Shown here one piece after another: positions 7,671-46,648 of a stretch of 64,000 bases of DNA (positions are counted from its first letter, which is position 1; the number at the start of each line of letters is the position of its first letter). The stretch is from Salinimicrobium catena. GTDB lineage: Bacteria > Bacteroidota > Bacteroidia > Flavobacteriales > Flavobacteriaceae. The notes beneath the pieces were generated by a model. That model was given only the letters and a program-made list of their open reading frames with translations, searched no databases and was not told where the DNA came from. The DNA is taken from positions 62,001 to 126,000 of the forward strand of contig NZ_FNGG01000001.1 in NCBI RefSeq assembly GCF_900102915.1, in the 5' to 3' direction. A program made the translations under genes and the position numbers.

Positions 7671-8384
7671 ATGAGGTATACAGTTGTTATGGTTTTACTA
7701 TTTTTTTGCGGAAACCAGGCATATTCCCAGAATTTCGAAATAGGCCCCTTTGCAGGAGGCGCTAACTATGTTGGGGATGTGGGCAACTCTACCTATATAA
7801 ATCCGAACACCACAGTCTTTGGCGGCATCTTCAAATGGAATCGCAGTCACCGCCACACCCTCAGGTTCTCTGTTATGTATGCTGAGATCAAGGCCGATGA
7901 CGCCAAGTCTCACGACACCAGAAGGCAGCAAAGAGGCTACTCTTTTGTCAACAATATTACCGAAGCATCTTTGGGGCTGGAATTCACTTTTTGGGACTGG
8001 GACCTACATTCTGATAAATATCAAGCCACACCTTACCTTTACACGGGAATAAATTATTACTTTGCCAACCATTTTATGCTAAGGAATAATGCTTATACCA
8101 ATCCGGCCAACAATGAATTGCTGGAAGCGGGGAACAATTGGGAATTTTCCATTCCCATGGTCTTTGGGTACAAACAGACCCTCAACTCGTTTTTGGCAGC
8201 AGGTGTTGAAATTGGTGCAAGGTACACCTTTACAGACAACCTGGATGGCAGCCAGCCATCTGAAGTTGACGGCAGCTACGGCTCCAAGGATTTTGGGAAC
8301 AGCAACACGACCGATTGGTACATCTTTACGGGTGTTTACCTGACATTGAATTTTGGACCCAAATCATGTTACAACGAATATTAG
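7671..8384 (+). CDS. DUF6089 outer-membrane protein, PorG-like T9SS component
   Basis: A 237-residue protein with a signal peptide (MRYTVVMVLLFFCGNQAYSQ) followed by strands of a small outer-membrane beta-barrel, opening FEIGPFAGGANYVGDV. This start and the AGGANYxGD pattern fit the DUF6089 family, which includes PorG of the Porphyromonas gingivalis type IX secretion system. The order PorG-uppS-bamA-skp-skp is the same as I recall around porG (PG0189) in that species, which supports orthology. The internal ATG at 7671 is preferred over 7644 because it gives a clean signal peptide and lies downstream of a -7 box. The stop is two bases before the uppS ATG. Confidence 0.75.
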   Translation: MRYTVVMVLLFFCGNQAYSQNFEIGPFAGGANYVGDVGNSTYINPNTTVFGGIFKWNRSHRHTLRFSVMYAEIKADDAKSHDTRRQQRGYSFVNNITEASLGLEFTFWDWDLHSDKYQATPYLYTGINYYFANHFMLRNNAYTNPANNELLEAGNNWEFSIPMVFGYKQTLNSFLAAGVEIGARYTFTDNLDGSQPSEVDGSYGSKDFGNSNTTDWYIFTGVYLTLNFGPKSCYNEY

Positions 8385-8385
8385 A

Positions 8386-9126
8386 ATGAATTTTAAAGAA
8401 AAGATTGATCCCAAAAACCTCCCCCAACACATTGCCATTATCATGGACGGCAATGGAAGGTGGGCAAAGAAGCAGGGATTGATGCGGGCTGTGGGGCACG
8501 AAAAAGGAACCAAGGCCGTAAGAGAAGTAGTGGAAGGCTGCAGTGAAATAGGGGTGAAAAATCTCACTTTGTATGCCTTTTCTACAGAGAACTGGAACCG
8601 CCCTAAACTGGAGGTGGATACTTTGATGAAGCTTCTGGTATCCAGCCTTAAGAAGGAGATCAAGACCCTTCAGGACAACAACATCAGGCTGAATGCCATT
8701 GGCCGCCTGGAGAATCTTCCGAAAAAAGCTTACAGCGAACTTTCCGAAGTGATCAAAAAAACCAGCAACAATGACCGTATGACCCTCACCCTGGCTTTAA
8801 GCTACGGATCAAGGGAAGAACTCACCCATATGGTCAGGGAAATTTCAGAAAAAGTAAAAAACAACGAGATTTCATCAAAAGCTATTGATGAATCGGTTAT
8901 AAATGAGCATCTTTACACCCGAAATTTGCCAGACGTGGATCTTTTGATAAGAACCAGCGGCGAACAGCGCATAAGCAATTTCCTTTTGTGGCAAATAGCT
9001 TATGCCGAATTATATTTTTCAGAATTACTATGGCCAGATTATCGCAAAGACGATCTATTTGAAGCCATCTATAATTATCAAAACAGAGAACGAAGATTTG
9101 GAAAAACAAGTGAGCAACTTAGCTAG
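8386..9126 (+). CDS. uppS: Undecaprenyl (isoprenyl) diphosphate synthase
   Basis: Cis-prenyltransferase that adds isopentenyl units to farnesyl diphosphate, making the C55 lipid carrier for peptidoglycan and O-antigen. With the start at 8386 it has 246 residues. MDGNGRWA at 20-27 includes the catalytic Asp21, and the C-terminal RTSGEQRISNFLLWQ and ELYF motifs bind substrate and close the active site. The ATG follows the previous stop by one base, and the 3' end overlaps the bamA start, so the three genes form one unit. Confidence 0.96.
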   Translation: MNFKEKIDPKNLPQHIAIIMDGNGRWAKKQGLMRAVGHEKGTKAVREVVEGCSEIGVKNLTLYAFSTENWNRPKLEVDTLMKLLVSSLKKEIKTLQDNNIRLNAIGRLENLPKKAYSELSEVIKKTSNNDRMTLTLALSYGSREELTHMVREISEKVKNNEISSKAIDESVINEHLYTRNLPDVDLLIRTSGEQRISNFLLWQIAYAELYFSELLWPDYRKDDLFEAIYNYQNRERRFGKTSEQLS

Positions 9127-41355: not shown

Positions 41356-43650
41356 TTACATTCCGTCTTTCCTGGCCTTACGCTCCTTTTCCTGGGCGTC
41401 GACCACGGCCACGGCTGTCATGTTCACGATTTCTTCCACGCTCGCACCCAGCTGCAGCACGTGAACGGGTTTGTTCATCCCCATTAGAATTGGACCTACG
41501 GACTCCGTCTTGTTGAGCTCCTTGATGAGCTTGTAAGTACTGTTACCCGAGTCAAGGTTAGGGAAAATAAGCGTGTTCACTTTCATTCCTGCCAGCTTTG
41601 AGAACGGAAATTTCTTCTGAAGCATTTCCTTGTTCAGAGCAAAGTCGGTCTGCATCTCGCCATCCACCACAAGATCCGGGTAGAAACGGTGCAGGTAAGC
41701 CACGGCTTCTTTGACCTTTTCGGCATTCTCGTTCCTCGAAGAACCGAAGTTGGCGTAAGAGATCATTGCCATTACCGGCTCCAGACCAAAAAGCCTCACA
41801 GTTCTCGCTGTCATTTGCGCGATCTTGGCCAGTTCTTTGGCCGAAGGATCAATGTTCACCGAAGTATCACTCAAAAACAGCGGCCCGCGGGAGGTATTCA
41901 TCAGGTTGGTCGCCGCTACTTTTGAAACTCCCTTTGCCTTTCCTATCAGCTCCAACATCGGTTTTAAAACAGTTGGATAAGAACGGGAATAGCCTGATAA
42001 CAATGCATCGGCATCGCCGGCGTTCACCATCATGGCCGCGAAATAGTTTCGCTGGCGCATCAACAGCTCCGCATCATATTTAGTAACCCCTTTTCTTTTT
42101 CTTGTCTGCCAGTAAACTTCAGCATAACGAATGCGGCGCTCGTTCTCGTCATCAGATTTGGAATCGATGATAGCCACATCGTCTGCCTGGAAATCGATCT
42201 CGTGCATCAGTTCTTTGATCACATCCCTTCTTCCCAAAAGAATAGGAATGGCGATACCTTCGTCATGAACGATCTGGGCAGCCTTCAGCACATCCAGGTG
42301 ATCTGCTTCGGCGAAAACCACTCGCTTGGGATCCATTTTCGCGCGGTTCATCAGCAGTCGGGTGATCTTATTATCGTTCCCCATTCGCTCGAGCAGTTCA
42401 TCTTCGTACCTGTCCCAGTCCAGGATCGGACTTTTGGCCACACCGGTTTCCATTGCGGCTTTGGCAACTGCCGGCGGCACTTCGGTTATAAGCCTTGGAT
42501 CAAAGGGTTTCGGAATGATATAATCCCTTCCGAAGTTAAGGCGGGTCTCCCCATAAGCGATGTTCACCTGCTCGGGCACCGGCTCTTTGGTCAGTCTGGC
42601 AAGCGCTTTTACCGCCGCCATTTTCATCTCCTCATTGATCTTGGTGGCACGCACATCAAGTGCTCCCCTAAAGATGAAAGGGAATCCAAGCACGTTGTTC
42701 ACCTGGTTAGGATGATCACTGCGGCCGGTGGCCATAATGATATCCTTGCGGGTAGAAACGGCCAGGTTATAATCTATTTCAGGATTTGGATTGGCCATGG
42801 CAAAAACGATCGGGTTTTTGGCCATTTTCTTCAGCATTTCGGGAGAGACGATGTTCCCTACCGAAAGTCCGAGGAAAACATCGGCCTTTTCCATGGCTTC
42901 TGCCAGGTTCTTATATTGTTTCTTCACGGCAAATTTCTGCTGTAGCTCAGACAGATCAGTTCTGCCGGTATGCAACACGCCGTTAACATCAAACATTACG
43001 ATGTTACTGAGTTTTACTCCGAGAGCCACGTAAAGGTTCGCGCAGGCGATAGCAGCCGATCCCGCCCCGGAGATCACCACCTTCACCTTTCCGATCTTTT
43101 TCCCGGCAAGCTCCAAAGCATTCAGCAACGCAGCCGAGGAGATGATCGCCGTACCGTGCTGGTCATCGTGCATCACAGGAATATCCAGCTCTTCTTTAAG
43201 CCTTCTTTCGATCTCAAAAGCTTCGGGAGCCGCGATGTCTTCAAGGTTGATCCCGCCAAAGGTAGGCGCGATGTTCTTAACCGTATCAACAAACTTATCT
43301 ACATCTTTTGCGTCAACTTCTATGTCAAAAACGTCAATATCTGCAAAGATCTTGAATAGAAGCCCTTTTCCTTCCATTACCGGTTTTGAAGCTTCGGGAC
43401 CAATATCTCCCAGACCCAGAACAGCGGTTCCGTTAGAGATCACCGCCACAAGGTTGCCCTTGGTGGTATATTTGTATGCGTTTTCTTTGTCTTTGTGGAT
43501 CTCCAGGCAGGGTTCTGCAACACCGGGGGAATAAGCAAGGGAAAGATCTCGTTGTGTGGAATATTTTTTAGTGGGCACCACCTGTATCTTACCGGGGTGC
43601 GGCTTGGCGTGGTAGACCAGGGCCTCCCGCCTTTTGCGTTCGTTACTCAT
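41356..43650 (-). CDS. maeB: NADP-dependent malic enzyme with phosphotransacetylase-like domain
   Basis: Oxidative decarboxylation of malate to pyruvate, giving NADPH. The 764 residues hold a malic enzyme half (about 1-425) with [25 protein letters not shown] and the nucleotide-binding [14 protein letters not shown]-terminal phosphotransacetylase-like half (about 440-764) includes [19 protein letters not shown]-type segments. This fusion is the normal MaeB form, where the PTA part is regulatory and binds acetyl-CoA. It stands alone between a promoter and a terminator. Confidence 0.95.
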
Positions 43651-43740: not shown

Positions 43741-45666
43741 TTAAAATAGCGCTTCAGGCCGGACCACTTTGTCCAGTTTCTCCCGATATTCTTCCGGCAG
43801 CAATTCGAGGCCCAGCTGGTAGGAAGCGTTCATCCAGCCAAAGCCCGAGGTAGTGATATAGTCGAACTCGGTTCCCACGTTTCCGTATTCGGCGTAGACC
43901 TTATGGGTGGTATTCACCACATCATATTTTTCGGGAATGGTACCGTTGTAGTCTGCCGCATTTTTGGTGATCATCCACAACCAGCGGTAAATGAGCTCGT
44001 GCGCCTCTTTTTCATAGCCGTAGTTGAGCAACCCCTCCCACAACAGCATCTGGTGCGGAGCCCAGCCATAGGGGTAGTCCCACTGCCGCTGCACCTCATT
44101 GGTCGCCGTCTTTTCTGCGGAAGATTTGGCACTCGCCAGGATGCCGCCCCTGGCTTTGAGATCCTGCAGCAGGTTAGGAACCATCCTTTGTACCTGCTCT
44201 TCTGAAGCCATTTTTGCCCACAAAGGATAGAAGTTGGTAGCGGAAATATATCCTGTCTGTTCCCCTTTTTGAAAGTCGTAATCAAAGAAGCTTCCCTTCT
44301 CTTCGTCCCAGAGATAGCGGTTCATCAGATCTTTTCGTTTTTCGGCTTTTTCGGCCCAATATGCATCAGAATATCCTTTCCCTGAAGAATGCGTAAAACT
44401 TCCGCCGAAATATTCAGAAATGAGATACAGAAAATCCTTTTCATACTTGTACAAGAGCGAATTGAGATCAACCGTGTTGAGATGCGCGGCCCGATTCTCC
44501 AACCTCCATGAGGTGTCGTGCCCGCTTTCCCTCACACTGCGGTCATGCCTGAAATATTCATCCAGGTCCTTGTCTTCTATTTCTTCTGACTTGTATTTTT
44601 CTTCAAATTCAGCCGCAGGAAGACCATGCTTTGCGGCGTATTCCTTTAGCACCGCTTCAAAATGCCCTTTTTCGGTCTCGGGCGGAATACCTATCCCCTG
44701 CGCAAAATATCTGTTAAGGCCATTTTCGGTCAGTCTTTCTCCTTCTTCCATCCAAACTTGTTCGTATTCGGTGATGGCTGCATCAAGAGCTTTCCGCAGC
44801 CACACGGTATCTTTTTCTTCGGAAGCTTCAAAGACCTCCCGAACAAATGAAGACATGAACGGCGGCTGGGTGCGGGTGAGGTAATAGGAACGATTGGCGT
44901 TGAGGATCTTTCCGTAGTGGTTGATCTGGTAGATGAAATTATCGACCATAGCCTTTGCGAGGTCAACCCGGCCGTCAATGATGAGACCCACGCCTTCAAA
45001 ATAACTGTCCCAGCCGTACATCTCATTGAAGCGCCCCCCGGGCACCACGAACGGCACCCCTTTTCCGTTCTCGATTTTCAAGGCAAGTAATCCCGGCTCA
45101 TCGTTAATCGACTTCACGTAATCCGGAGTGATCTTCTGCGGAAGCACCACCACTTCAAAATCCGGATATTCTCTTTCAAGATTCTTGAAATATTCCAGCC
45201 CCACAGTATCGTTTGGGGGAACGTACAAACGCTGCACATCTCCCGATGCTTTGGTGTCCCGAAGAATCTTTTTCAGACCTTTTTTGTCAATGGTTCGGGT
45301 AAGGTCATCCCAGAAATAGTTTTTGATCCTTCGGGAAATGCGCTGCGAGGGCGGCTCTTTGATCTCTGAAAGGGATATTTTCAAAGTGTCCTCGCCTTTC
45401 TCCCTGGCCTGGGCAAGCTCCTGAAGAAGGTTGGACAGGTAATAGACCTCATTTATTGCTATAGAATCCCCGGCAATAGTGGCAGCCAAAAATGGCATTT
45501 TTGGCGAGTCTTCAATTGTGATCTTTTTGTCATTATCTGTGTCTGCAGATAGTAGCAGGCGCTGCATGTTCGGCTGCACCTCCAAAGCAAAATCAGGGGT
45601 TTGCGCAAAGATGACCCCTGTAAAGACGGACAATAAAGCAGTAATAATCCCCTTTTTCAGATCCAT
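43741..45666 (-). CDS. Secreted alpha,alpha-trehalase (GH37), fungal neutral-trehalase-like
   Basis: Splits trehalose into two glucoses, probably in the periplasm: 641 residues with a signal peptide ending VIFAQ. Both trehalase signatures are present, PGGRFNEMYGWDSY at 209-222 and QWDYPYGWAP at 528-537. Likely catalytic residues are Asp384 in RESGHDTSWR and Glu579 in PEKYDV. The sequence looks more like fungal NTH1-type neutral trehalases than E. coli TreA: it has the calcium-binding motif DTDNDKKITIED (42-53), NDEPGLLALKIENGKG, NTVDLNSLLYKYEKDF, and AEYGNVGTEF in place of TreA's glycine-rich GGGGGEY. No other trehalose gene is nearby. The queG gene ends 49 bases upstream. Confidence 0.93.
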   Translation of the reverse strand: MDLKKGIITALLSVFTGVIFAQTPDFALEVQPNMQRLLLSADTDNDKKITIEDSPKMPFLAATIAGDSIAINEVYYLSNLLQELAQAREKGEDTLKISLSEIKEPPSQRISRRIKNYFWDDLTRTIDKKGLKKILRDTKASGDVQRLYVPPNDTVGLEYFKNLEREYPDFEVVVLPQKITPDYVKSINDEPGLLALKIENGKGVPFVVPGGRFNEMYGWDSYFEGVGLIIDGRVDLAKAMVDNFIYQINHYGKILNANRSYYLTRTQPPFMSSFVREVFEASEEKDTVWLRKALDAAITEYEQVWMEEGERLTENGLNRYFAQGIGIPPETEKGHFEAVLKEYAAKHGLPAAEFEEKYKSEEIEDKDLDEYFRHDRSVRESGHDTSWRLENRAAHLNTVDLNSLLYKYEKDFLYLISEYFGGSFTHSSGKGYSDAYWAEKAEKRKDLMNRYLWDEEKGSFFDYDFQKGEQTGYISATNFYPLWAKMASEEQVQRMVPNLLQDLKARGGILASAKSSAEKTATNEVQRQWDYPYGWAPHQMLLWEGLLNYGYEKEAHELIYRWLWMITKNAADYNGTIPEKYDVVNTTHKVYAEYGNVGTEFDYITTSGFGWMNASYQLGLELLPEEYREKLDKVVRPEALF

Positions 45667-45715: not shown

Positions 45716-46648
45716 TTAGTCTTCCTTCAGAAAATCAATATTCCGGGTAAGCCCTGAAAATTTGGTCCTTTTCACGGCTGACTTTTTAAATACTTTTCGG
45801 AAAGTGTCTTCGGTGATCTCCTCCCAGTCTTTTTTGGACATGCTGAGCAGATCGGGGTGAGGATCGAACAGGGGCTCGTTATGGGGTTTTGAAAAACGGT
45901 TCCAGGGACAAACATCCTGGCACACATCACAACCGAACATCCACTCATCAAATTTACCTTTCATCTCCTGCGGCAGCTGATCTTTCAGTTCAATAGTAAA
46001 ATAAGAAATACACTTGCTGCCATCCACCTTGTAAGGTTCTATAATGGCATTAGTGGGGCAGGCGTCAATGCAGGCAGTGCAGCTTCCGCAGTGATCGGTC
46101 ACCGGGGTATCGTATTCCAGGTCCAGATCCACAATAAGTTCAGCTACAAAAAAGAAAGAGCCGGTCTGCTTGGAAAGCAGGTTGCTATTCTTCCCGATCC
46201 AGCCGAGTCCGCTCTTTGCCGCCCAGGCCTTATCCAGCACGGGGGCAGAATCCACAAAAGCCCTTCCTTCCACCTCACCTATTTCTTCCTGAATAAACCT
46301 TAAAAGATCCTTCAGCTTGTCCTTGATCACGAAATGATAGTCTGTTCCGTAAGCGTACTTGCTGATCTTATAAGAATCTTCTCGCTGCCTTTCTTCAGGG
46401 TAATAATTAAGGAGCAGTGAAATCACGCTTTTCGAACCTTCTACCAATTTGGTAGGATCCAGGCGCTTGTCGAAATGATTTTCCATGTATTTCATTTCGC
46501 CGTGCATGTTCTTCTTCAGGTAGTTTTCAAGCCGAGGCGCTTCCTCTTCAAGAAATTCCGCCTTGGAAATTCCGCAGGAGAGAAACCCAAGGCTTTTCGC
46601 CTCGGCTTTGATCATTTCTGAATATTTGGACCTGTTGGAAAGATTCAC
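45716..46648 (-). CDS. queG: Epoxyqueuosine reductase
   Basis: Last step of queuosine formation in tRNA: reduces epoxyqueuosine using cobalamin and two [4Fe-4S] clusters. The 310 residues include the QueG N-terminal region ([24 protein letters not shown]) and two ferredoxin-type clusters, [16 protein letters not shown] and [13 protein letters not shown]. The length is at the short end of the family, lacking the C-terminal HEAT-repeat extension of some homologues. It follows the P450 gene by 14 bases. Confidence 0.95.

Follow-up and report, generated by a model that had tools for sequence, protein, structure and literature searches.

The window analysed here, a stretch of 64,000 nucleotides from Salinimicrobium catena, encodes a genuine bacterial, presumably exported member of the Nth1 type of trehalases, the type of the neutral trehalases of fungi. 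The gene (43741..45666, on the minus strand like its own features and the two flanking genes given below) reads from 45666 to 43741 as an open reading frame with an ATG start, a TAA stop and no internal stop codons, and codes for an alpha,alpha-trehalase of 641 amino acids. Its product passes the Pfam profile for GH37, PF01204, over residues 107-622 (486.1 bits against a cut-off of 21) and is the only protein of the S. catena genome to match it. Considered by itself, the enzyme adds a variant to an established type; its interest lies in its origin and in a possible split between the docking of a calcium domain and control by 14-3-3 proteins. The joint explanation that we consider best, and quite probable, is that of an exported Nth1-type trehalase with a constantly docked calcium domain, and of fungal enzymes derived from a signal-less bacterial relative.

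A phmmer search against all PDB sequences aligned residues 27-639 of the window protein with yeast Nth1 (565.7 bits, E 1.2e-168), whereas two bacterial TreA structures scored 149.9 and 147.6 bits and were aligned from residue 205 on only. The window protein and Nth1 (5jta, 5nis, 5m4a, 5n6n) have the same domain order, a calcium domain followed by the GH37 domain, with an EF-hand-like loop in the same place and the GHD and EKYD active-site motifs in both; where they align, they are about 45% identical. They differ in that Nth1 has an extended N-terminal tail, which bears the PKA and 14-3-3 sites, and the window protein a presumed signal peptide. The periplasmic or cytosolic TreA/TreF enzymes of bacteria (2jf4, 5z66) have the GH37 fold and the catalytic residues in common with the window protein, but they score only about 150 bits, lack the calcium domain and read GGGGGEY where the window protein reads AEYGNVGTEF. 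An ordinary TreA/TreF whose likeness to Nth1 is limited to a few motifs would share this fold and these residues, and TreF/TreA models were indeed the only NCBIfam models matched, all of them below their cut-offs (209.5 bits of 512, 195.3 of 941 and 178.2 of 560). The gap between the scores to Nth1 and to TreA, the separate clade formed at 100/100 by the TreA/F rows in our 53- and 60-row trees, and the occurrence of the calcium loop in none of the 50 other GH37 rows (intermediate and TreA/F) nevertheless make such an identity next to impossible. The assignment to the fungal neutral-trehalase type rather than to TreA/TreF, proposed in the preliminary description of this DNA, is thus upheld by the scores and by the position of the protein outside the TreA/TreF clade in GH37 trees built with one fungal sequence and Bacteroidota.

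The catalytic (alpha/alpha)6-type trehalase domain spans residues 106-641 (43744..45351), as judged from the PF01204 match and from fold matches to both Nth1 and TreA. D478 and E674 of Nth1, which we take to be the GH37 catalytic pair, face D384 (44515..44517) and E579 (43930..43932) of the window protein, the presumed catalytic acid and base, respectively; both residues are invariant in the 47 Nth-type rows of one alignment and in the 8 rows of a second. The three segments singled out in the preliminary description as resembling fungal neutral trehalases, ESGHDTSWR, NTVDLNSLLYKYEKDF and AEYGN.G..F, were all found, the last reading AEYGNVGTEF (residues 592-601; 43866..43895). This segment occupies the place of the TreA glycine-rich loop, is modelled with low pLDDT and may act as a lid over the active site. 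The features ascribed there to E. coli TreA were borne out for the GGGGGEY loop and not for ESGWD, as the aligned PDB chain has ASGWD; ESGWD does occur in a TreA-type protein of Bacteroidota (L099).

The calcium-binding domain region was delimited to residues 27-105 (45352..45588) from the alignment of sequence and model to yeast Nth1 and from a sub-threshold match to PF07492; the boundary at 105 was chosen because the alignment of the apo Nth1 chains begins at about residue 104. It contains the EF-hand-like loop DTDNDKKITIED at residues 42-53 (45508..45543), exactly where the preliminary description had placed it and facing the D114-D125 loop of yeast Nth1. In the phmmer alignment, D42, D44, D46 and D53 stand opposite D114, D116, N118 and D125, and these acidic ligands are present in the window protein; yeast Nth1 has N118 and Q120 where the window protein has D46 and K48. 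Among the 47 Nth-type rows, D42, D46, I49, T50 and D53 are invariant and D44 is kept in at least 90%, while K48 is not among the conserved positions. The Pfam search proposed earlier did detect PF07492 (residues 34-54, E 4.9e-4), although at 20.2 bits it falls under the curated cut-off of 25. The same profile matched 44 of the 47 Nth-type rows at E<=0.1 (best E 2.1e-14) and, in the second alignment of 8 rows, the window protein and none of the seven non-Nth rows. The loop itself was found in 119 of 120 distinct Nth-type proteins of Bacteroidota, and the one without it is truncated at the edge of its contig. Sorted by motif instead, 111 of 112 distinct rows with RESGH and 8 of 58 rows without it carry the loop, those eight (L041, L057, L190-L195) being classed as Nth-type by their scores. 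The window protein presumably binds calcium.

An AlphaFold2 model built from 47 sequences reached a mean pLDDT of 90.2 and a pTM of 0.90, with low values in the signal peptide and in residues 591-610, which have the lowest confidence beyond the N-terminus (mean pLDDT 56 and 68). The top Foldseek match was the 14-3-3-bound Nth1 chain 5n6n_C (E 2.3e-57), with which VIA-align superposed 609 residues of the model (21-641) at a Z of 44.0 and an rmsd of 2.1. For the Nth1 structures 5jta, 5nis and 5m4a, the alignment begins at residue 104 or 105 and covers about 515 residues (Z 42.5-42.8); for the best TreA, it covers 413 (Z 35.5). The model supports, short of proof, a calcium domain that docks on its catalytic partner as in the activated 14-3-3-bound yeast complex; AlphaFold2 was probably trained on that very complex, hence the docking may be remembered.

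The N-terminus of the trehalase consists of MDLKK, a hydrophobic stretch and FAQ/TPD, and read by eye it resembles a Sec signal peptide (residues 1-21; 45604..45666). Hydrophobic N-termini are also present in the closest relatives (L001-L003). Of the 41 residues ahead of the calcium loop, about 21 belong to the presumed signal peptide; since merely about 20 then separate it from the loop, there is no room for the phosphorylated tail of the yeast enzyme, and the sequence accordingly lacks a PKA/14-3-3 tail. Both observations had been made in the preliminary description and stand. The window trehalase is therefore likely exported, and its presumed signal peptide sets it apart from the cytosolic location that is a trait of the Nth1 type.

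For a mechanism we used yeast Nth1 as a model, as it is set out in two reviews, PMC9523730 among them; there, the docking of the calcium domain depends on phosphorylation and 14-3-3 binding. The window enzyme would act outside the cytoplasm as an inverting GH37 trehalase, splitting trehalose into two glucoses with D384 as the acid and E579 as the base. Its small N-terminal domain, in which a single EF-hand-like site would hold calcium, would pack onto the catalytic domain and help order the flexible active-site loop, or lid, as in the activated yeast enzyme, so that the calcium domain might control the lid. Calcium would serve as a structural cofactor supplied from outside the cell. Docking is probably constant in this enzyme because both the tail and the 14-3-3 partner are absent. 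That same absence fits a rival that we would as readily accept as reject, in which the loop is purely a structural relic that may take up calcium or some other ion tightly during folding, and calcium has no regulatory role; an exported marine enzyme would moreover presumably face constant calcium. The near-invariance of the loop shows selection, which does not tell a structural role from a controlling one, while the low confidence of residues 591-610 leaves scope for lid control.

Proteins of this type occur in other Bacteroidota. The best 80 matches of a GTDB scan are 53-77% identical to the window protein and belong to Bacteroidota wherever a group is named. Near full-length Nth-type matches of at least 641 bits were found in 20 of 395 Bacteroidota genomes, that of the window included; seven others encode an intermediate type (268-310 bits, with matches that begin past residue 100), and all remaining matches score at most 178 bits. 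Two class-wide draws, which overlap with this set, gave Nth-type matches of at least 509 bits in 3 of 244 and 28 of 294 genomes. The intermediate proteins (L132-L138, to which L111 from a Granulicella plasmid locus may be added) measure about 530-555 amino acids and lack the calcium loop and domain, yet they are nearer to Nth1 than to TreA (267.8 against 230.7 bits for L132); in our trees, L132-L138 form a separate clade that is sister to the Nth-type clade. Mobile or viral carriers were rejected on scans of plasmid records and viral contigs. Among 72,556 plasmid records 79 matched, and in the 60 of these matches that were listed only one covered at least 80% of the query; the best of those listed, at 33.9% identity, comes from Acidobacteriota and belongs to the intermediate kind. 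Four pattern matches turned up in the viral contigs, none of them a relative.

Export is a variable trait within the Nth-type family. A hydrophobicity rule was applied to the 118 distinct Nth-type rows for which 400 or more bases of upstream sequence exist; it called 63 of the proteins signal-less and 50 exported and left 5 as ambiguous. As a mark of the family, then, export did not survive the wider comparison. A gene for an MFS transporter of the L008 type lies directly upstream in 62 of the 63 signal-less rows, in 3 of the 5 ambiguous ones and in none of the 50 exported ones, the last being preceded by an SSS gene (12 rows), by a GPH-like MFS gene (3) or by none of the three transporters (35). 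The association of MFS genes with signal-less trehalases has a Fisher p of 1.4e-31 if kinship is ignored. On manual revision, L060 (called exported) and L039 (ambiguous), in which the MFS gene overlaps an upstream-extended reading frame, are probably signal-less, and L123 (called exported, MFS absent) may be so too. On the tree, export changes at least six times and the MFS gene five times; independent pairs, scored without L197, L198, L104 and near-copies and with L060, L123, L005 and L039 left unscored, gave four opposite differences, no parallel one and one without difference, too few for significance (p 0.125).

The MFS genes (L008 4788-6014, L142 22-1338 and similar ones) stand directly upstream of the signal-less trehalases and often overlap them. 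Pfam assigns MFS_1 to the L008 and L142 transporters, which would import trehalose, and SSF to that of L011. In Robertkochia and Aquimarina, where the Nth-type trehalases are lipoprotein-like, the gene directly upstream of them encodes an SSF sodium:solute symporter (L011 4262-5980, L031 4243-5961) that possibly serves glucose uptake. The GPH-like protein matched the NCBIfam model for sucrose/proton symporters below its cut-off. The signal-less proteins beside MFS genes (L008, L142, L143) resemble the window protein in their calcium loop and full-length homology, with 53% identity in the case of L142, and differ from it in having no signal peptide and an MFS gene immediately upstream. Queries with MFS, GPH and SSS proteins retrieved no homologues in the window, and regulation through a co-transcribed transporter was consequently discarded for this locus. 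Across the whole genome, the MFS query likewise found no homologue (in a search without a positive control of its own) and the SSS query found distant relatives, the best at 31%. A Fusarium trehalase of the neutral-trehalase type, FsTreA, is described with an N-terminal signal (PMC13274424), and export of this type may thus occur in fungi too.

Three trees were computed, with 53 and 60 rows under a mixture model and with 51 rows under LG+G4 and the intermediate group as the sole outgroup; all sample one fungal sequence, the long-branched yeast Nth1, and one bacterial phylum, Bacteroidota. The 60-row tree leaves out ARATH_TRE1 and L111 for their long branches and L048, L038, L016, L007, L136, L124 and L103 for size, and has L142 in exchange for L126, the same gene. 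In all three trees, yeast Nth1 is nested among the Nth-type rows of bacteria, and several bacterial lineages branch off ahead of it in each. Its sister is L126 in the 53-row tree (99/95) and the group of L142, L143 and L144 in the 60- and 51-row trees (98/90 and 95/88), all four being members of Bacteroidota families f26 and f30; two of the three rows of this yeast-nearest lineage are signal-less. A clade of bacteria only was recovered in 0% of 200 bootstrap trees for each of the three trees. AU tests against such a clade gave p values of 0.01, 0.0535 and 0.117; at the two higher values, it is not rejected. One would expect long-branch attraction to draw yeast toward the outgroup, not into the clade. 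L142 scores 660.7 bits against Nth1, more than the window protein does. Rare residues in common with yeast number 12 in f26/f30 and 0-7 in other groups; they were given little weight because a control by single rows did not discriminate (L037 22, L113 19, L143 17, L142 14).

On this sampling, descent of the fungal neutral trehalase from the bacterial family, rather than the reverse, is favoured though not proven. The reverse, a transfer from fungi or another eukaryote into Bacteroidota with subsequent spread and loss of the tail, would agree with the fungal provenance of the calcium-domain trehalases in print and, by the two higher AU values, with yeast as sister of all bacterial rows, in which case the direction is open. 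We regard this transfer as improbable, given the bacterial lineages that diverge before yeast in the three trees, a bacterial diversity that exceeds the distance to yeast (600 bits between the window protein and L131, 514-620 bits between yeast and bacteria), and a gene order that argues for long residence in Flavobacteriaceae. In the window, the trehalase is flanked by queG (45716-46648) on one side and by the malic enzyme gene maeB (41356-43650) on the other, with ruvB, ruvA, sprA and a cytochrome P450 gene (46663-47985, PF00067) also around it. The order ruvB-P450-queG-Nth-maeB-ruvA-sprA is common to three Salinimicrobium loci and partly retained in Robertkochia, Aquimarina and Dokdonia, which contradicts a recent gain by this genome. 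Of the two origins suggested in the preliminary description, a bacterial root of the fungal enzymes is thus the one favoured by the trees, within the limits of the AU values, while a recent transfer from fungi into this genome is not supported.

A third source, be it another bacterial phylum or another eukaryote, may have given the gene to both fungi and Bacteroidota. Systematic sampling covered Bacteroidota only, and the Acidobacteriota plasmid protein mentioned above speaks for such a source; yet positive evidence is lacking and yeast joins a Bacteroidota lineage at 95-99% bootstrap, so we consider this source doubtful. We lean toward a bacterial invention with two long-used layouts in Bacteroidota, one cytosolic with an MFS importer and the other exported without it, from which a signal-less member would have entered a fungal ancestor. 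The fungal neutral trehalases would most likely stem from such a signal-less protein, the regulatory tail for 14-3-3 control having been added later.

Should the calcium domain prove to be an ancestral, bacterial feature, the yeast mechanism would split into two steps, domain docking first and 14-3-3 control later. The tail-less bacterial enzymes would then be natural controls for the ordering of the active site by a docked domain, and through them the origin of a much-studied regulatory enzyme of fungi can be tested on a wider tree. A 2024 review names control by phosphorylation, calcium and 14-3-3 proteins as what separates Nth1 from the trehalases of prokaryotes (PMC10847541). Passages of a review on bacterial trehalases mention calcium for the fission-yeast enzyme and contain no word that starts with Bacteroid- (PMC10969515). 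Bacterial Nth1-type trehalases with a calcium loop were not described in the passages searched, and we do not present them as unpublished. TreZ of Zunongwangia, a marine flavobacterium, is reported as a characterised GH37 trehalase of 530 amino acids with 44% identity to E. coli Tre37 (PMC4731906); it is TreA-like, unlike the window protein.

Some of the neighbouring genes recur at related loci. In 25 of 80 loci (counted by eye, many loci ending at contig ends), the trehalase is followed by a maeB homologue that begins no more than 300 bases downstream, and 16 of 80 retain the P450 gene next to queG and ruvB. In the Dokdonia locus L023, the trehalase is followed by a gene (7888-9057) whose product has a Pfam match to GH100 (neutral invertase). 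Elsewhere in the genome of the window, on contig C4 (70285-73546; L201, L202), a GT20 protein of 737 amino acids, the C-terminal part of which resembles a phosphatase by eye, is encoded beside a GH15 gene, and this pair probably serves a separate, intracellular trehalose turnover.
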